Source: Planctomycetaceae bacterium
GTDB lineage: Bacteria; Planctomycetota; Planctomycetia; Planctomycetales; Planctomycetaceae
Assembly (NCBI GenBank): GCA_014762625.1
Contig: JABURQ010000196.1
Span: 1-33,119 of the forward strand
Direction of reading: 5' to 3'
DNA: 33,119 nucleotides
The notes beneath the pieces were generated by a model that did not search any database, was not told where the DNA came from, and saw nothing but the letters and a program-made list of their open reading frames with translations. Below are positions 22,286 through 33,119 of the stretch, piece by piece; the first letter of the stretch is position 1, and every line of letters starts with the position of its first letter. A program made the position numbers and the translations under genes.

Positions 22286-22684
22286 ATGGCAGCGAGACCT
22301 GCTCCGGAAACGCCCACAGACGGCGAACTGGAAATTCTGAAAGTCCTTTGGCAACGCGGACCGAGTACCGTTCGCGAGGTGTTGGAAGTTCTCAATCGAC
22401 AACGGGAACGCGCCTATACCTCCATTATGACCATGATGAATTTGATGGTCGATAAAGGACTTCTACAACGAGAACCACAGGGGCGAGCGTTCATTTATCG
22501 TCCCGCATCCGCCCAACGCGCGGTCTTAAGCGAGATCGTGGATAATCTCGTGGGGAAAGCGTTTGACGGATCCCCGAGTTCTCTCGTGACGGCGTTACTG
22601 GATAAATCCAAATTAAGTCCCGAGGAAGCGGAGAGAATCAAGGACGCCATCATTGAGTATCAGGAAGAGAAAGGGATTCGATGA
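22286..22684 (+). CDS. BlaI/MecI/CopY-family transcriptional repressor
   Basis: 132 residues. The winged helix occupies about 10-80: DGELEILKVLWQRGPSTVREV, then TSIMTMMNLMVDKGLL (recognition helix) and the wing GRAFIYRP. A C-terminal dimerisation helix follows. Such repressors are cut by a partner M56 membrane protease on signal, releasing the promoter. The partner gene overlaps its last codons (ATGA), so the pair is translationally coupled. A palindrome at 22172-22185 is a likely operator. The signal is unlikely to be a beta-lactam, as no beta-lactamase gene is near. Confidence 0.95.
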   Translation: MAARPAPETPTDGELEILKVLWQRGPSTVREVLEVLNRQRERAYTSIMTMMNLMVDKGLLQREPQGRAFIYRPASAQRAVLSEIVDNLVGKAFDGSPSSLVTALLDKSKLSPEEAERIKDAIIEYQEEKGIR

Positions 22685-24516
22685 ACGAACTGCTCCCGGA
22701 CAATCTGGTCACCAGACTGGCGGAAACGCTCCTGCATTTCTGCTGGCAAGGTTTCGCCATTGCCGTAGTGGGTCTGTTTTTACTCAATCTTCCCCTCTTC
22801 AAACGAGCTTCAAGCCGATATCTCGTCAGTTTGAGCCTGTTTCTGATCATGGCGGCAGCTCCCGTTGTGACTTTTCTCGCATTAGACACAACCGTTGCTG
22901 CGACCTTAACGACCAACGTCCCCTCCCAAATAACGACGATCGCTCCGCAATTCCTCATTGCGAATCCCGCACCGGCCATTTTAGACACTCTCCTCCCGTA
23001 TTCGGATCAGCTCGTATTCATCTGGGGACTCGGCGTATGGGTACTGACTTGCCGTTTACTGGTTGCCTATCATCGCGGACGAAAACTGCAATTGGACACC
23101 GAACCGCTGCCAAAACAACTCGCGATCCGTGTTCAACAATTGACGACACAACTTCGCATGCCGAATTTCCGGAACATTTATCTTTCAAAACACTCCGAGG
23201 AAGCGCTCGCTCTCGGTTTCTGGAAGCCGACCATTTTGATCCCGGTGGCGTGGGCGATGGATTTACCACTCTCGACGTTGGAAGCGATTATCGCGCACGA
23301 GCTGGCGCACATTCGTCGTCACGATCTGTGGGTGAATCTTCTGCAAAGGGTAACCGAGGTGATTTTGTTTTATCATCCGGCCGTCTGGTGGTTGTCAAAT
23401 CGCGTCCGTGAGGAACGAGAGATGTGTTGCGACGAAGTCGCCGCCGCTTCGACGGGAAAACATTTGGACTACGCCCGCGCATTGGAAAATGTCGCCCGCT
23501 ATTTATCCGGCAACACACTATTGCTGGAAACCTCTTTTAAAGGAGAGAATCAGATGAAGATGTTGAAACGCGTTCGCCAGATACTGGGACAATCGTCTTC
23601 GTCCCGCTCGATGGGCAGGGTCTCTCTCAGTGCGATTACGTTACTCGCCGCAGTCAGCCTGTCGAGTCTGTCGCTAATGGCGCAAGACGCACCGTCCAGA
23701 GAAGGCGATCGTCCGACTGCGGAACGAGGAGACCGTCCCGCGCCTCCCTCCGAAGGGACTCGTGGAAATCGTCCGAGACCTCCCCGTGGGGAGGAGGATC
23801 GTCTTCCTTTCCCGCCTCCTCGCCGCGAAGGGGCAAGACGAGACGGCGACCATCGTCCTCCCGGCCCTCCCCCGGAAGGGCGTCGAGGTCGTGAGGAAGG
23901 ACGTTTCGACCGCGGTGATGGCCGACGCGAAGGCCCACCTCCCCGAGGCAACATACCTCCCGGAGAAGGTCGTGAAGCTCAACTCGCGCGAGAAATCCAA
24001 TTGTTGCGGGAAGAGGTACGACAACTCAGGGAAGAATTGCATCGACACGGTCCACCGCCGCGCGGCCCACGAGACGGTCAATTCGGCCCTCCGCCACGAA
24101 GAGATGGTAATCTACGAACGCGAGGGAGTCGTGAAACAGGACCTCCTCATTACGAGACCGCGCCACCTCCCCGAAACCCTGACGACAGAACCAGTCAAGT
24201 GATTCCCCGCTGGGATGGGCGTGAAACTGGACCTCCTCATTACGAGACCGCGCCACCTCCCCGAAACCCTGACGACAGAACCGGTCAAGTGATTCCCCGC
24301 TGGGATGATAGTGTCGTCCCCAGAGTACCGGTCGAAGGTCGCGATAGTGAACGACAGGGCCCACCACGAGGACGAGCAGGCGATCGACCGATTCCTCCAC
24401 GTGATGGATTCGGTCCTCCTCCCCGCGGTCAGCGTGACGGCGATCGACCGGCACCACCTCCCCGGGAAGGAGACGATCGACTGGAACGCCCCCGTCGCCC
24501 GGATGCGGAAAACTGA
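22681..24516 (+). CDS. M56 (BlaR1-like) membrane metalloprotease with Pro/Arg/Gly-rich tail
   Basis: 611 residues. Three N-terminal transmembrane segments (about 15-37, 44-67, 108-130) precede the zinc protease domain, with HELAH at 206-210 (H206, E207, H210) and EREMCCDE near 245 giving the third ligand. A fourth segment (about 317-335) follows. In BlaR1 the part beyond this is the periplasmic beta-lactam sensor. Here it is replaced by about 270 residues of Pro, Arg, Gly, Asp and Glu repeats, predicted disordered. One ordered exception is a perfect heptad stretch at about 431-455, with hydrophobics at 435, 439, 442, 446, 449 and 453. A 30-residue unit is duplicated at about 484-543. It presumably cleaves the upstream BlaI-type repressor when something touches the tail. 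Confidence 0.92.
   Translation: MNELLPDNLVTRLAETLLHFCWQGFAIAVVGLFLLNLPLFKRASSRYLVSLSLFLIMAAAPVVTFLALDTTVAATLTTNVPSQITTIAPQFLIANPAPAILDTLLPYSDQLVFIWGLGVWVLTCRLLVAYHRGRKLQLDTEPLPKQLAIRVQQLTTQLRMPNFRNIYLSKHSEEALALGFWKPTILIPVAWAMDLPLSTLEAIIAHELAHIRRHDLWVNLLQRVTEVILFYHPAVWWLSNRVREEREMCCDEVAAASTGKHLDYARALENVARYLSGNTLLLETSFKGENQMKMLKRVRQILGQSSSSRSMGRVSLSAITLLAAVSLSSLSLMAQDAPSREGDRPTAERGDRPAPPSEGTRGNRPRPPRGEEDRLPFPPPRREGARRDGDHRPPGPPPEGRRGREEGRFDRGDGRREGPPPRGNIPPGEGREAQLAREIQLLREEVRQLREELHRHGPPPRGPRDGQFGPPPRRDGNLRTRGSRETGPPHYETAPPPRNPDDRTSQVIPRWDGRETGPPHYETAPPPRNPDDRTGQVIPRWDDSVVPRVPVEGRDSERQGPPRGRAGDRPIPPRDGFGPPPRGQRDGDRPAPPPREGDDRLERPRRPDAEN
24130..24309 (+). repeat. 90-base tandem duplication inside the M56 gene
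   Basis: Two head-to-tail copies of exactly 90 bases (24130-24219, 24220-24309) differ at only a few positions, for example 24138/24228 (A/T) and 24193/24283 (A/G, Ser to Gly). Each encodes 30 residues beginning RETGPPHYETAPPPRNPDD and ending IPRWDG or IPRWDD. The reading frame is kept. Such near-identity indicates a recent duplication by slippage or recombination. Confidence 0.95.
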
Positions 24517-28866: not shown

Positions 28867-29625
28867 TCACGGCAACGTCACACGACCGCCGTCCGCCACA
28901 TACGTCTGACCGGTCACAAAGCTCGATTGCTCGGTCAACAAAAACGCCACCACCTCGGCGATTTCCTCCGGCTTTCCGAAACGGGAAATGGGCGTCGAAT
29001 CGATGAGTGCCTGTTTCGCTTCCTCGCTCACATCGTCGATGATGTCTGTGTCGACAAGCCCCGGAGCGACGGCGTTCACGCGGATGTTATGCGGGGCGAA
29101 CGCCTCGGCACAACTGCGGGTAAAGCCGATGAGTCCCGCTTTCGTCGTCGAATAGGAAATACATCGCGGACGTGCCCGCAAACCTGCAATCGATGCCACA
29201 TTCACAATCCGCCCGAAGTTCCGCTCGATCATGCCCTCTTTCACTGCCCAGGTCGTATAAAACGGACCGTCGAGATTGACCGCCTGTTCCCGCTTCCAGA
29301 TCTCGGCGGTCGTCTGGTCGTGGGGCACCGGGTAAAAAATTCCCGCATTATTGACCAGCAGATCGACCGGACCGAGTTGTGATTCCACTTCCGCCACCAG
29401 CCGCTGCACTTCCTCTTCATTCGCCACATCCGCCTGCACGGCGATCGCGACTCCGCCATCGTTTTCGATATGCCGGACCACTTCGTGCGCGGCGGATCCG
29501 TTGCTGTGATAATTGACGGCGACCTTCGCCCCGAGAGATGCAATTTTGAGAGAGATAGCGCGTCCAATGCCGCGCGATCCCCCGGTCACAAGAGCGACGC
29601 GATCGGTGAGTTGGGTGTTGTTCAT
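28867..29625 (-). CDS. Short-chain dehydrogenase/reductase (FabG-like)
   Basis: 252 residues, the classical SDR length. The cofactor site TGGSRGIG is at 14-21, NNAG at 92-95, and the catalytic tetrad is N118, S145, Y158 and K162 (YSTTK). The C-terminal [18 protein letters not shown] and [12 protein letters not shown] are typical of 3-oxoacyl-ACP reductases and relatives. Substrate cannot be fixed; it lies away from any fatty-acid gene cluster, so it may be a paralogue acting on another carbonyl compound. It is convergent with the haem protein gene and 100 bases downstream of the LRR group. Confidence 0.93.
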
Positions 29626-29725: not shown

Positions 29726-30664
29726 TCAAAACGAGTTTTGAAACTCTATGACGCAGTCTGGTCTTTTTTTCTGGAACTCCTCCACTCCTTCCTTGGTGAC
29801 CTGAGTTCCATACAGCTCCAGATATTTGAGTTCTTTCAGTTCAGAGAGATGAGCCAAGCCTTCATTTGTTATTTGAGTCTGTGATAGAACGATGTGACGA
29901 GCGGGAGAACTATGGCGAATTCTCAGTATTGACTCATCAGTGATTTTTGTTTCACCCAATTCCAGTTGTGAGCACTGGTTGATGAGTTTCTCGAAAATCG
30001 CAAACGATTTGTCATCCAGATCTGAGTTGCGAAAACTGAGTCGCCGAAGCTGTGGAAACCGTGATTCGGAAATCGAAATCTCCCGTTCACTTTCGAACGT
30101 ACAAAATTCCATGCTGACAAATTGGAGATTCGGCACAGTATCAATGCGTGCGACTACATCCAAATCGATGACTGTTCCTGTAAATCCGAGATACACCAAC
30201 GTTTTGTGGGTTGTCATTGCGTCATAGAATGACGGGCTAGTTATTTTACATCCCGAAACTAAGAGTTGGCTTTCAGAATGCTCAAGTTGGATTTCTCGAA
30301 ATGCGTCTGCCTGATCCTGATCGAATTCGCCTTCTTGAATTATCAGGACGGACTTGAATCGATTTGGATATTGCCTCAGTAATTGCAAGCGATTTTCAGG
30401 ATATAACTCGACTAACTCATAGCCTCTCAGGGCAAGCGCATATCGTTTTTCAAAGATTTTATCGACCCAGTTTGGCTCACTCAGGCCGGAGAGATGGCCT
30501 CCCGCAGAGTTCACGGCGTCGATAAAGGAAAGACGCTTGTGAATTTTGTAGCTGACGAGACCCGCGAATAGCACTGCAACAACAACTCCCGCCCACACCA
30601 ACCGTCTCCAAAGTCGGCGGCTGGATGATCGTTGTTCGGGATTGGGGGTATCAGTATCGGCCAT
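29726..30664 (-). CDS. Membrane-anchored leucine-rich-repeat protein, copy 3 of 3
   Basis: 312 residues. An acidic cytoplasmic tip precedes SSRRLWRRLVW (14-24), one transmembrane segment (about 24-40) and an outward-facing domain. The second half has the planctomycete type of leucine-rich repeat, about 24 residues each, seen as ITNEGLAHLSELKELKYLEL and YGTQVTKEGVEEFQKKRP. It is the shortest and most diverged of three tandem paralogues, starting 6 bases after the stop of copy 2. LRRs usually bind proteins. No catalytic domain is present. Role unknown. Confidence 0.8.
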   Translation of the reverse strand: MADTDTPNPEQRSSSRRLWRRLVWAGVVVAVLFAGLVSYKIHKRLSFIDAVNSAGGHLSGLSEPNWVDKIFEKRYALALRGYELVELYPENRLQLLRQYPNRFKSVLIIQEGEFDQDQADAFREIQLEHSESQLLVSGCKITSPSFYDAMTTHKTLVYLGFTGTVIDLDVVARIDTVPNLQFVSMEFCTFESEREISISESRFPQLRRLSFRNSDLDDKSFAIFEKLINQCSQLELGETKITDESILRIRHSSPARHIVLSQTQITNEGLAHLSELKELKYLELYGTQVTKEGVEEFQKKRPDCVIEFQNSF

Positions 30665-30670
30665 GCTCGC

Positions 30671-31840
30671 TTACCAAGGCTCGAAAGTTCCGCCCCACCA
30701 ATATCCATGCTCAGCCTTCACTTCGTTGATGGGATTCGATTTCAGTAATCTCTCGATTCCTTGTTGTGAGACTGATGTCTCATACAAAGAGAGCAGCTTC
30801 AGATGATGCAGTGAGTTCAGCTCTTGTAAGCCAATATCGGTCATTGGTGTCCCATCAAGATAAAGCTCTTCCAATAGAGTCATGGAACTGAGTGCTTTCA
30901 TACCATCATCATTCAAGTCTGTGTCCGTGAGCATCAGACTTTTGAGGTTTCCGATAGATTTCAGTTTGTCGAGTGAAGCACCTCTCACGCTACATTCATT
31001 GAGTCTCAGGGCTTCGAGGTTTTTCAGATGCTGCAAGTGAAGTATTCCGCGATCCGTGACTGATGTCTTATCAAGCCTGAGATAGGTCAAATTGTTAAAC
31101 TGTTCGAGTGTTGCGAGCCCCGTATCCGTGACATTGGTATTTTCGAGGTCGATCGTGCGGCAAGTTTCCCCGAGCCCTAAAAAGGCCGAGAGAGACTGAT
31201 TAGAAAACTGGCATCCAGCCAAGTCGAGGGTGAGAATTTCTGGAAAGTTGTCAGCAGTGAGTTGGTCGTCACAAATCACCTGGCAATCATTGATAAAAAG
31301 GCTTTTTAATGAAGTCATATGTTTGAGTATGGCGAGATCCGAAAGATGGATCGTACCCTCCGAGACCAACAAAGCATTCAGTGAATGCATCTCTGAAAGA
31401 GATTGATACACCTGAGGAGGAATCGAGGAACAACCCTCAAAGTTCACGATTTCGAGAGCCTGTGCTTGTGTGATCAAGCTTGCCTCCTGATCAGTCACAG
31501 CTCCTCCCACGAAACCGACTTGCGTAATATTCTCCCAGCGGAGATCGTTCAGAATTATGAGTCGTTCGCGCGGCCCAAGTTCAACGCCATCAATGTGAGT
31601 AAAAAATACTCGACACACTGCTGGCAGATGTTTTTTCACCCATTCAGGTGAATTGTCTTGTAAGAAAAGATCACCATCGACGCCGCGGATTCTGATACGT
31701 AAGGCGATATCCCGATAAGTCTGATAACCACCGAATCCCACCAACAGTGTCACCGCCACCACACACGCCCACACCAACCGCCGCCAAAGTCGGCGGGAGT
31801 GAGCAGTCCTCTCCATGTGCTGTGACGCTTCATCATTCAT
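30671..31840 (-). CDS. Membrane-anchored leucine-rich-repeat protein, copy 2 of 3
   Basis: 389 residues. RRLWRRLVW sits again at 16-24, followed by a transmembrane segment (about 24-40). LRRs fill about 130-370 with the clear pattern of LxxLxLxxTxVTDxGL, for example NLTYLRLDKTSVTDRGI. It ends GYWWGGTFEPW, unlike its neighbours. It begins 9 bases after the stop of copy 1 and ends 6 bases before copy 3, so the three are almost surely one transcript. The arginines before the membrane segment put the N-terminus in the cytoplasm and the repeats outside. Confidence 0.85.
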   Translation of the reverse strand: MNDEASQHMERTAHSRRLWRRLVWACVVAVTLLVGFGGYQTYRDIALRIRIRGVDGDLFLQDNSPEWVKKHLPAVCRVFFTHIDGVELGPRERLIILNDLRWENITQVGFVGGAVTDQEASLITQAQALEIVNFEGCSSIPPQVYQSLSEMHSLNALLVSEGTIHLSDLAILKHMTSLKSLFINDCQVICDDQLTADNFPEILTLDLAGCQFSNQSLSAFLGLGETCRTIDLENTNVTDTGLATLEQFNNLTYLRLDKTSVTDRGILHLQHLKNLEALRLNECSVRGASLDKLKSIGNLKSLMLTDTDLNDDGMKALSSMTLLEELYLDGTPMTDIGLQELNSLHHLKLLSLYETSVSQQGIERLLKSNPINEVKAEHGYWWGGTFEPW

Positions 31841-31849
31841 GGAACACGT

Positions 31850-32986
31850 TCAATACCTGATATCGCAACGCGGCAGTTTCTTTTGGAGTTCATTCACGCC
31901 GGAAGGAGTCACACTTGTCCCATGCAATTTGAGACGCCTCAGATAATACAACGAATATAAATGGTGCAGTCCAGCATCCGTGATGTGAGTATCGTCGAGT
32001 ATGAGTTCTTCTAGGGTCATCACTTTGCCAATACTGGTGAGTCCAGCGTCGGTCACATTCGTGTCGGAAAGATCGAGGGAGTTCAAGCCGGTAAGACATT
32101 CCAGGTAAGGAAGCCACTCATCATCGATGAGGTTGTTGGATAACGTTAAATCCCTCAGATTGATTAATGAGGGGATCACCCTGAGGCCGCGATTGGTGAT
32201 TTTTGTGTTAACCAGGGACAAAAAACTCAAATTCTTCTTTCCTTCAAGAAATACGAGCCCTTCATCCGAAAGGTTTGTGTATCTTGAACTAAATCCTCTC
32301 AGGTGCTTCAGCGTGGAGAGCTCTTGAAGTTCGTTGTTATTGATGTGACTGTCATCAATGCCAAGACTTTCGAGATCATTAAGAACATGCAATTTTTCGA
32401 TGGCCCCCACCTCAAAGATGGTGTCTCGAAAAGCAATGGTCTTCAGCTTCGGGATTTCTCCGAGTTTTTTCGCTTCTGACGCTCTAAATTGACACTCATG
32501 AAATTCGATTGTTTCGAGGGAAGTTAGTCCGTGTATTTTTTGCACTCCACTAACATCTGAGGGGCCATCGAGAGTGAGGTGCTGTAGCTGATTCATTTCG
32601 GCAATGGAATTGAGCTCTTTTTCGGTAAGAGCGGAATCCACCACAATCAAGGCGTTAAAGTGATTGCAGAGAGGACAGTCCAGTAGATGCTCATAATCTT
32701 CCTCACGGGCGTTTTTTAGGACGACGTGATGCGCGTCTTGCCAGGTTTTCACAAACCGTTCTCCGAAAAGCTGCTTAGCCCAACGGTTTTCCGAATGGCC
32801 TACAAAAACACTGCCTCCTCGATCTGCAACTTGGCTCCGCCAGGAATAATGTCCTCGAAAAGGATGCCGATAGATCCCAATTCCGACGGCCACCACAACA
32901 ATCACTACACAACCCCACACCAACCGCCGCCAGAGACGACGGCTGGATGATTGTTGTCCGGAGGTCGTGTCGTCTGTTTCGGCCAT
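31850..32986 (-). CDS. Membrane-anchored leucine-rich-repeat protein, copy 1 of 3
   Basis: 378 residues from ATG at 32986, which keeps the N-terminus aligned with the other two copies (MAETDD versus MADTDT, then RRLWRRLVW at 17-25 or one residue earlier). A frame start at 33064 would add 26 residues and place the start upstream of the likely promoter at 33026-33056. A transmembrane segment lies at about 24-40. LRRs span about 110-370, for example LTGLNSLDLSDTNVTDAGL. The C-terminal GVNELQKKLPRCDI is the usual end-cap. First gene of the LRR operon. Confidence 0.85.
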   Translation of the reverse strand: MAETDDTTSGQQSSSRRLWRRLVWGCVVIVVVAVGIGIYRHPFRGHYSWRSQVADRGGSVFVGHSENRWAKQLFGERFVKTWQDAHHVVLKNAREEDYEHLLDCPLCNHFNALIVVDSALTEKELNSIAEMNQLQHLTLDGPSDVSGVQKIHGLTSLETIEFHECQFRASEAKKLGEIPKLKTIAFRDTIFEVGAIEKLHVLNDLESLGIDDSHINNNELQELSTLKHLRGFSSRYTNLSDEGLVFLEGKKNLSFLSLVNTKITNRGLRVIPSLINLRDLTLSNNLIDDEWLPYLECLTGLNSLDLSDTNVTDAGLTSIGKVMTLEELILDDTHITDAGLHHLYSLYYLRRLKLHGTSVTPSGVNELQKKLPRCDIRY

Positions 32987-33056: not shown

Positions 33057-33077
33057 TTTTTCATGGTTCTTCGAGTT

Positions 33078-33119
33078 CTAGCGTACGTAGGTTTCCAAAA
33101 AAGCGGACATGTTGGTTTG
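33078..33119 (-). CDS. Possible C-terminal end of a gene lying beyond the right edge
   Basis: Reading the minus strand from the window edge, 13 open codons (ending MSAFLETYVR) are followed by TAG at 33080-33078. The peptide has a protein-like look, and a gene end is expected here because the LRR promoter follows directly. Too short to identify. Confidence 0.3.
   Translation of the reverse strand, partial: QTNMSAFLETYVR

Follow-up and report, generated by a model that had tools for sequence, protein, structure and literature searches.

Gene layout and the shared anchor

Contig JABURQ010000196.1 from a Planctomycetaceae bacterium (assembly GCA_014762625.1), analyzed whole and hereafter called the window (33,119 nucleotides; C118 in our numbering), encodes three membrane proteins with leucine-rich repeats (LRRs) that an initial annotation had singled out as a tandem triad sharing an N-terminal anchor. 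The coordinates given there for three adjacent minus-strand genes proved exact (Table 1), with gaps of 9 bases between P0003 and P0002 and 6 bases between P0002 and P0001. An alternative start of P0003 lies at 33064, right beside an insertion sequence. Over their full length, the other two proteins aligned to the first at 30–31% identity.

Table 1. Features at the triad locus (window coordinates)
Feature	Coordinates	Strand	Remarks
LRR membrane protein 1 (P0003, 378 aa)	31850..32986	minus	anchor RRLWRRLVW at 32915-32941; span at about residues 22-40; LRRs follow
LRR membrane protein 2 (P0002, 389 aa)	30671..31840	minus	anchor at 31769-31795
LRR membrane protein 3 (P0001, 312 aa)	29726..30664	minus	anchor at 30593-30619; copy adjoining the SDR gene
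Short-chain dehydrogenase (SDR) gene	28867..29625	minus	LRR gene(s) adjoin here and in G392; without LRR neighbor in G393
Insertion-sequence end (26-bp end repeat + 29 bp)	33065..33119		contig terminus; strand not assigned

All three proteins carry SRRLWRRLVW at residues 15–24. The nine-residue RRLWRRLVW, preceded by S15, thus occupies the same place (16–24) in each, as had been claimed. Across the 306 gapless columns of the triad alignment, 48 were invariant and the longest invariant run was 10, a length reached in 0 of 100,000 column shuffles (maximum 8). The motif leads into one strong hydrophobic stretch at about residues 22–41 (mean Kyte-Doolittle value 1.77–2.27 over 19 residues; best stretch elsewhere 1.05–1.41), which agrees with the single membrane span initially proposed. 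The N-terminal tip, described as acidic, is indeed net negative, but only mildly (−2 to −3 over residues 1–15). The anchor was also compared with the cell-surface/export motif RRLxxExLExRxLLA reported near the N-terminus of Rhodopirellula baltica proteins (Studholme 2004, as cited in the part of PMC8567305 covered) and rejected as an instance of it, as RRLWRRLVW has R where E is required.

Over the 15 residues flanking the span, net charge was +4 on the N side and +1 to +2 on the C side, the N side being more basic in all four proteins examined. This pattern favors, though not strongly, an N-in, C-out topology. The initial annotation placed the LRRs outside. They follow the span, and their outward placement is a prediction from these flanking charges.

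Repeats and predicted structure

Regular 24-residue repeats were listed for P0003 (eight), P0002 (eight), and P0001 (three), and Pfam LRR models scored above cut-off for P0002 and P0003 and below it for P0001. The repeats are of the GL/GALA (CC-LRR) type, combining L..L.L with an I/V-T-D motif. AlphaFold, run with four aligned rows, predicted an LRR solenoid for P0003 with a mean predicted local distance difference test score (pLDDT) of 77.7. Per ten-residue block, pLDDT was 87–96 beyond residue 180 and fell below 50 at residues 1–14 and 37–66. Foldseek searches with this model returned generic LRR proteins overall; E-values were lowest for internalin A and for a Roco LRR domain. In query-normalized template modeling score, FBXL17 (0.66) ranked highest of the 50 rows shown, followed by RipG4/GALA and NLRP3 (both 0.63). 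The PDB matches, which were LRR proteins, include several with a binding role: internalin A, FBXL17, RipG4 (GALA), and ribonuclease inhibitor.

Distribution of the motif and sister genomes

A degenerate DNA pattern for RRLWRR gave 34 matches in the genome of origin and 25 for the reversed control. Thirty of the 34 were read, and none of the non-triad ones among them stands in an open frame longer than 97 codons; in the remaining four, F or S takes a position that the motif requires. We therefore rejected the motif as a general membrane tag of this genome, and the possibility raised initially, that it recurs in many unrelated membrane proteins, did not materialize. Across the phylum, a nine-residue degenerate pattern that admits F for L matched 3 of 392 genomes, including that of the triad. 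The two other matches (L054, L055) read RRFWRRLVW, with no LRR frame among the frames listed, and a wider spread of the motif in the phylum was not upheld. A GTDB scan with RR[LI]WRRL[VL]W yielded 112 stretches and one confirmed relative, where confirmation was made against P0003 and more distant relatives could fail it. This relative is a gene on JAURQH010000052.1 from the Planctomycetota metagenome-assembled genome SFB_South_Co_60 (G392). Within the 392 phylum genomes and the GTDB scan, the RRLWRRLVW-type motif with LRRs was thus found in this genus only. The search suggested initially, for the motif followed by a span and LRRs in other planctomycetes, recovered only this sister species, with one copy next to the counterpart SDR gene.

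The G392 gene (L074:5295-6080) carries the motif as RRIWRRLLW. Gene order there is SDR, one LRR gene, ileS, compared with three LRR genes in the window genome and none at the locus in a third genome, G393. While the SDR proteins of the window genome and G392 are 86% identical and the N-terminal part of IleS (256 residues) 93%, the triad and the G392 protein share only 22–32% past the anchor. The anchor is therefore held while the repeats diverge between species as well as within the triad; the opposite outcome, homologues with repeats as conserved as the anchor, was not what G392 showed. Its LRR gene is open for 262 codons downstream of an in-frame TAA just before the motif, with no ATG, GTG, or TTG between the two. 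The copy may be a young pseudogene, use an unusual start, or reflect an assembly error.

The SDR of G393 is 82% identical to that of the window and is followed by other genes before ileS, one of them sulfatase-like by eye; a family profile built from seven N-termini had no match in G393. The SDR gene is not thought to be part of the LRR system. The interval between it and ileS is variable in the genus, holding LRR genes in two genomes and the sulfatase-like gene and others in G393 (L105:6828-12945).

In a full-length tree of seven family members, P0001 paired with the G392 gene with moderate support (83/88); the N-terminal tree of the same members left this pairing unresolved, and neither tree has a starred fork. 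The pairing agrees with synteny and with a tandem duplication that preceded the species split.

Retention or conversion of the anchor

Identity among the triad is concentrated in the motif itself, where 22–25 of 27 bases are alike. Over the whole anchor region (about 42 codons), protein identity was 40–50% and DNA identity 52–62%, against 22–29% and 38–42% in the remainder. The early statement that the anchor DNA is much more alike than the rest therefore stands for the motif, while for the anchor as a whole the excess is modest.

Two causes had been put forward for this pattern, strong selection and local gene conversion, and the comparison with G392 bears on both. Motif DNA is as alike between species (21–24 of 27 bases) as within the triad. 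The anchor region of P0002 resembles that of G392 (55% protein, 66% DNA, silent codons identical at 12 of 19) more closely than those of the adjoining triad genes (40–46% protein, 52–54% DNA, silent codons 8 of 17 and 7 of 15). Silent sites in the triad anchors are also near saturation (proportion of silent differences, pS, 0.67). Because of these three observations, the anchor is better explained by selection having retained it for a long time than by recent local conversion, and only the first of the two proposed causes is favored for the triad. Pointing the other way, silent codons were identical more often in the anchor (23 of 50) than in the remainder (67 of 221; Fisher P 0.045, with pairs that are not independent).

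The repeats had been expected to show a diversified binding face. We compared the ratio of nonsynonymous to silent differences (pN/pS) between repeat positions and found 0.40 at LRR core positions and 0.75–0.94 at exposed ones. The exposed positions did not bear out the expectation, the concave face (0.75) showing no excess over the convex face (0.94) at silent sites that are saturated.

Related membrane-LRR arrays

Two further proteins of the same genome, encoded on contigs C89 and C113, carry a membrane span near the N-terminus together with a juxtamembrane stretch of approximately GG..P.W..GE and TD.GL repeats; their anchors before the spans are quite different from those of the triad. P0003 matches the C89 protein at 1e-17, and a candidate juxtamembrane stretch of the triad was picked out by eye in an alignment with family members. 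On the strength of the C89 match, the triad may be distantly related to a group of planctomycete membrane-LRR proteins whose genes often lie in arrays, a placement that fits only loosely.

The seven-member N-terminal profile, four of whose sequences are triad-type, found matches in 34 of 119 relatives' genomes, many of them side by side. Sixteen regions were picked for visible neighbors, a choice that by its design favors arrays; from one of them (L166) came only a single gene and thus no pair. The resulting sample comprised 15 arrays of 2–7 genes from 8 genomes, with 45 genes and 30 neighboring pairs, some neighbors lying several hundred bases apart and pairs within an array not being independent. 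One of these arrays (G327, L160:3032-15083) consists of seven tandem open frames of 556–580 codons with long LRR parts, six of which begin with near-identical RFLRQFGLRTLLLFC anchors.

The anchor was more alike than the remainder in 28 of 30 pairs at the protein level and in 27 of 30 at silent codons (26 and 29 of 30 with other borders). Along the gene, the share of identical codons among identical residues fell from 0.72 to 0.35. Silent divergence (dS) rose from 0.60 in the anchor to 1.15 in the non-repeat stretch next to it and to 1.5–2.3 in the repeats; the non-repeat stretch is the better comparison, as repeat silent sites are near saturation and non-orthologous repeats may be paired. N-terminal signals and anchors often evolve faster than the domains they carry, and arrays with the anchor as their most conserved part were for this reason unexpected. 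A single control case agrees with the usual trend: four tandem non-LRR membrane paralogues beside an LRR array in G411 (L174:157-4532) show the opposite gradient, with the N-terminus least and the C-terminus most conserved.

Silent likeness of the anchor was weaker among non-adjacent copies than among adjacent ones. It also extended between different G458 arrays (0.67 in the tip and 0.60 in the span, versus 0.41–0.58 beyond residue 75 past the span start) and between G458 and G411 arrays (0.66 in the span versus 0.42–0.45), and therefore conversion inside one array is not its sole cause. Possible contributors are constraint at the DNA level, unequal exchange at the 5' end, and gene conversion.

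Across 122 repeats from the G458 and G411 arrays, the four most variable positions were 2, 3, 5, and 7, which in L..L.L.. are exposed on the concave side. There pN/pS was 0.88, compared with 0.51 at exposed convex positions (bootstrap difference 0.24 to 0.50 over 16 pairs). With dS at about 2.2, this excess does not prove positive selection. No concave excess appeared in the G454 arrays (0.60 concave vs 0.75 convex) or in those of G327, G205, and G377 (0.64 vs 0.79). Both ideas first raised for the triad, conversion and a variable binding face, thus fare better in related tandem arrays, the latter in two genomes only.

Extent of the gene set

The initial annotation allowed that the set might extend past the right edge, a suggestion that the edge itself speaks against. 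The window closes with 55 bases that are also found at the ends of other contigs, made up of a 26-base repeat plus 29 more. They form the end of a multicopy insertion sequence (33065-33119), whose 26-bp end repeat starts GGTTCTTCG. Eight exact copies of the 26-mer occur in the assembly, each close to a contig end; at six of them besides the present one, the contig stops 26–29 bases past the repeat. The eighth, on contig C171, marks the other end of an element of this kind, with ileS lying about 530 bases farther on. The ends may resemble those of ISL3-type elements, and a short T-rich stretch with CAT stands on both flanks of the insertion sequence, possibly a target duplication. The gap between C118 and C171 is probably bridged by one insertion sequence alone. 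On that assumption, and given ileS beyond it and the order SDR-LRR-ileS in G392, the set is probably complete at three. Elsewhere in the window, positions 22681-24516 hold a BlaR1-like M56 peptidase gene (Pfam E 4.4e-26).

Proposed function and alternatives

With confidence and doubt about evenly balanced, we propose that the triad encodes LRR binding proteins held in the membrane by a constant anchor, their repeats drifting or diversifying. Each gene would yield a signal-anchored inner-membrane protein whose short N-terminal tip and basic-aromatic RRLWRRLVW are cytoplasmic. A GALA-like, CC-type LRR solenoid on the far side of the membrane would bind a protein or other ligand. The nearly unchanged anchor may do an equal job in every copy, such as insertion, orientation, and perhaps docking to a shared partner, and the drift or diversification of the LRR parts would let the copies bind different things. 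Tandem duplication may have produced the set, probably ahead of the divergence from the sister species, with copies gained and lost.

Several observations weigh against this proposal. The charge difference between the two sides of the span is small. The triad shows no sign of positive selection, its silent sites being saturated such that the ratio of nonsynonymous to silent rates (dN/dS) gives no conclusion. The in-frame stop in G392 may mean that the LRR gene is dispensable. A profile of 46 array proteins that recognized C113 (3e-16) and C89 (6.5e-15) fit the triad weakly (P0001 1.3e-4, P0003 3e-3, P0002 unreported at E 100) and the G392 gene at 9e-3, with the search space set to 10,000 and 0 of 101 other window frames reported; its juxtamembrane part matched none of the three triad proteins. 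Finally, no recurring partner gene was apparent by eye in the flanks of four arrays and three single members.

Neutral birth and death would leave the genes with little specific function, the anchor being kept since mis-inserted membrane proteins are harmful while the repeats decay or drift. We regard this as unlikely, even though the stop in the G392 copy, the lack of any copy at the locus in G393, the unequal lengths of 312, 378, and 389 aa, and the saturated silent sites without a concave-face excess are all what it would predict. Set against them are three frames that stay open over 312–389 codons and an LRR core more constrained than the exposed positions. The nine-residue identity also looks beyond what insertion needs, given the quite different anchors of C89 and C113.

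Less probable still is an N-out, C-in arrangement, in which the LRR parts would belong to membrane-bound cytosolic adaptors instead of outward receptors. Basic residues on both sides of the span are compatible with it. However, N-in is the usual outcome for a basic N-terminal anchor that is not cleaved, and the more basic N side of all four proteins argues the same way.

The notion that recent local conversion homogenized the triad anchors concerns their origin and is compatible with the proposed binding function. It draws on the motif and silent-codon likeness within the triad and on the low anchor dS of the related arrays; the likeness between species, the affinity of the P0002 anchor for G392, and near-saturated silent sites leave it disfavored and rather improbable. 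Very unlikely, lastly, is a polyimmunity-like locus of membrane-held LRR proteins that neutralize rivals' incoming toxins: the layout, with divergent paralogues set close together in tandem and varying in number, is reminiscent of such loci, and LRR proteins figure among immunity candidates (in the part of PMC3482391 covered), but that passage does not name planctomycetes, and no toxin was recognized among the 10 other window open frames scanned or by eye in the flanks of four arrays and three single members.

Comparison with known systems

GALA-LRRs in Gemmata and GL-LRRs in Rhodopirellula, members of the CC-LRR subfamily, have been reported (PMC2244805, in part). GALA-type LRRs in planctomycetes are thus already known, while anchored tandem arrays there were not described in the limited collection of literature covered. 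The triad has like 24-residue repeats, with I/V-T-D and then Gly, and GALA proteins were matched by Foldseek and, for P0003 and P0002, by phmmer. The original Ralstonia GALA proteins carry an F-box, for which no domain model was found among the Pfam matches of the triad proteins; GALA-type proteins of other bacteria, Gemmata included, also lack it according to the portion of PMC2244805 covered. The N-terminal anchor, the tandem array, and the conservation of the anchor are not described for GALA proteins in that portion.

Internalins have an LRR binding solenoid in common with the triad, as reflected in the Foldseek E-value of internalin A. The triad anchor is N-terminal, unlike the internalin type, and NCBIfam internalin models, whose cut-offs are 1100–1600 bits, reached 14–24 bits for P0002 and P0003 and did not appear for P0001. 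The NEX1/PEX1 proteins of Parachlamydiaceae resemble the triad in layout, forming tandem arrays in which a conserved N-terminal module is followed by a variable number of LRRs, with lineage-specific expansion (PMC4209131, in the part covered). Their N-terminus is an F-box, BTB, or RING domain, that of the triad a membrane anchor.

Nearest at hand are the planctomycete membrane-LRR paralogues (C89, C113, and the G458, G411, G454, G327, and other arrays), united by an N-terminal span, a juxtamembrane stretch, and TD.GL repeats. As in the triad, their arrays combine a tandem layout with an anchor more alike than the repeats; the triad is more diverged, at 22–29% identity in the remainder versus a mean of 45%. 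It is conceivable, though doubtful, that planctomycetes hold a widespread repertoire of tandem anchored LRR receptors, with an anchor homogenized at the DNA level in arrays and across a genus and repeats that change in number and vary most on the concave binding face, of which the triad would be an old, eroded example. If the binding-face variation in two related genomes is adaptive, this would be a natural, expandable LRR receptor set, and if the proteins are receptors, the candidate ligands to seek are prey, phage, kin, and algal surfaces. In its logic, such a repertoire would be a bacterial analogue of variable lymphocyte receptors or of the LRR gene clusters of plants.

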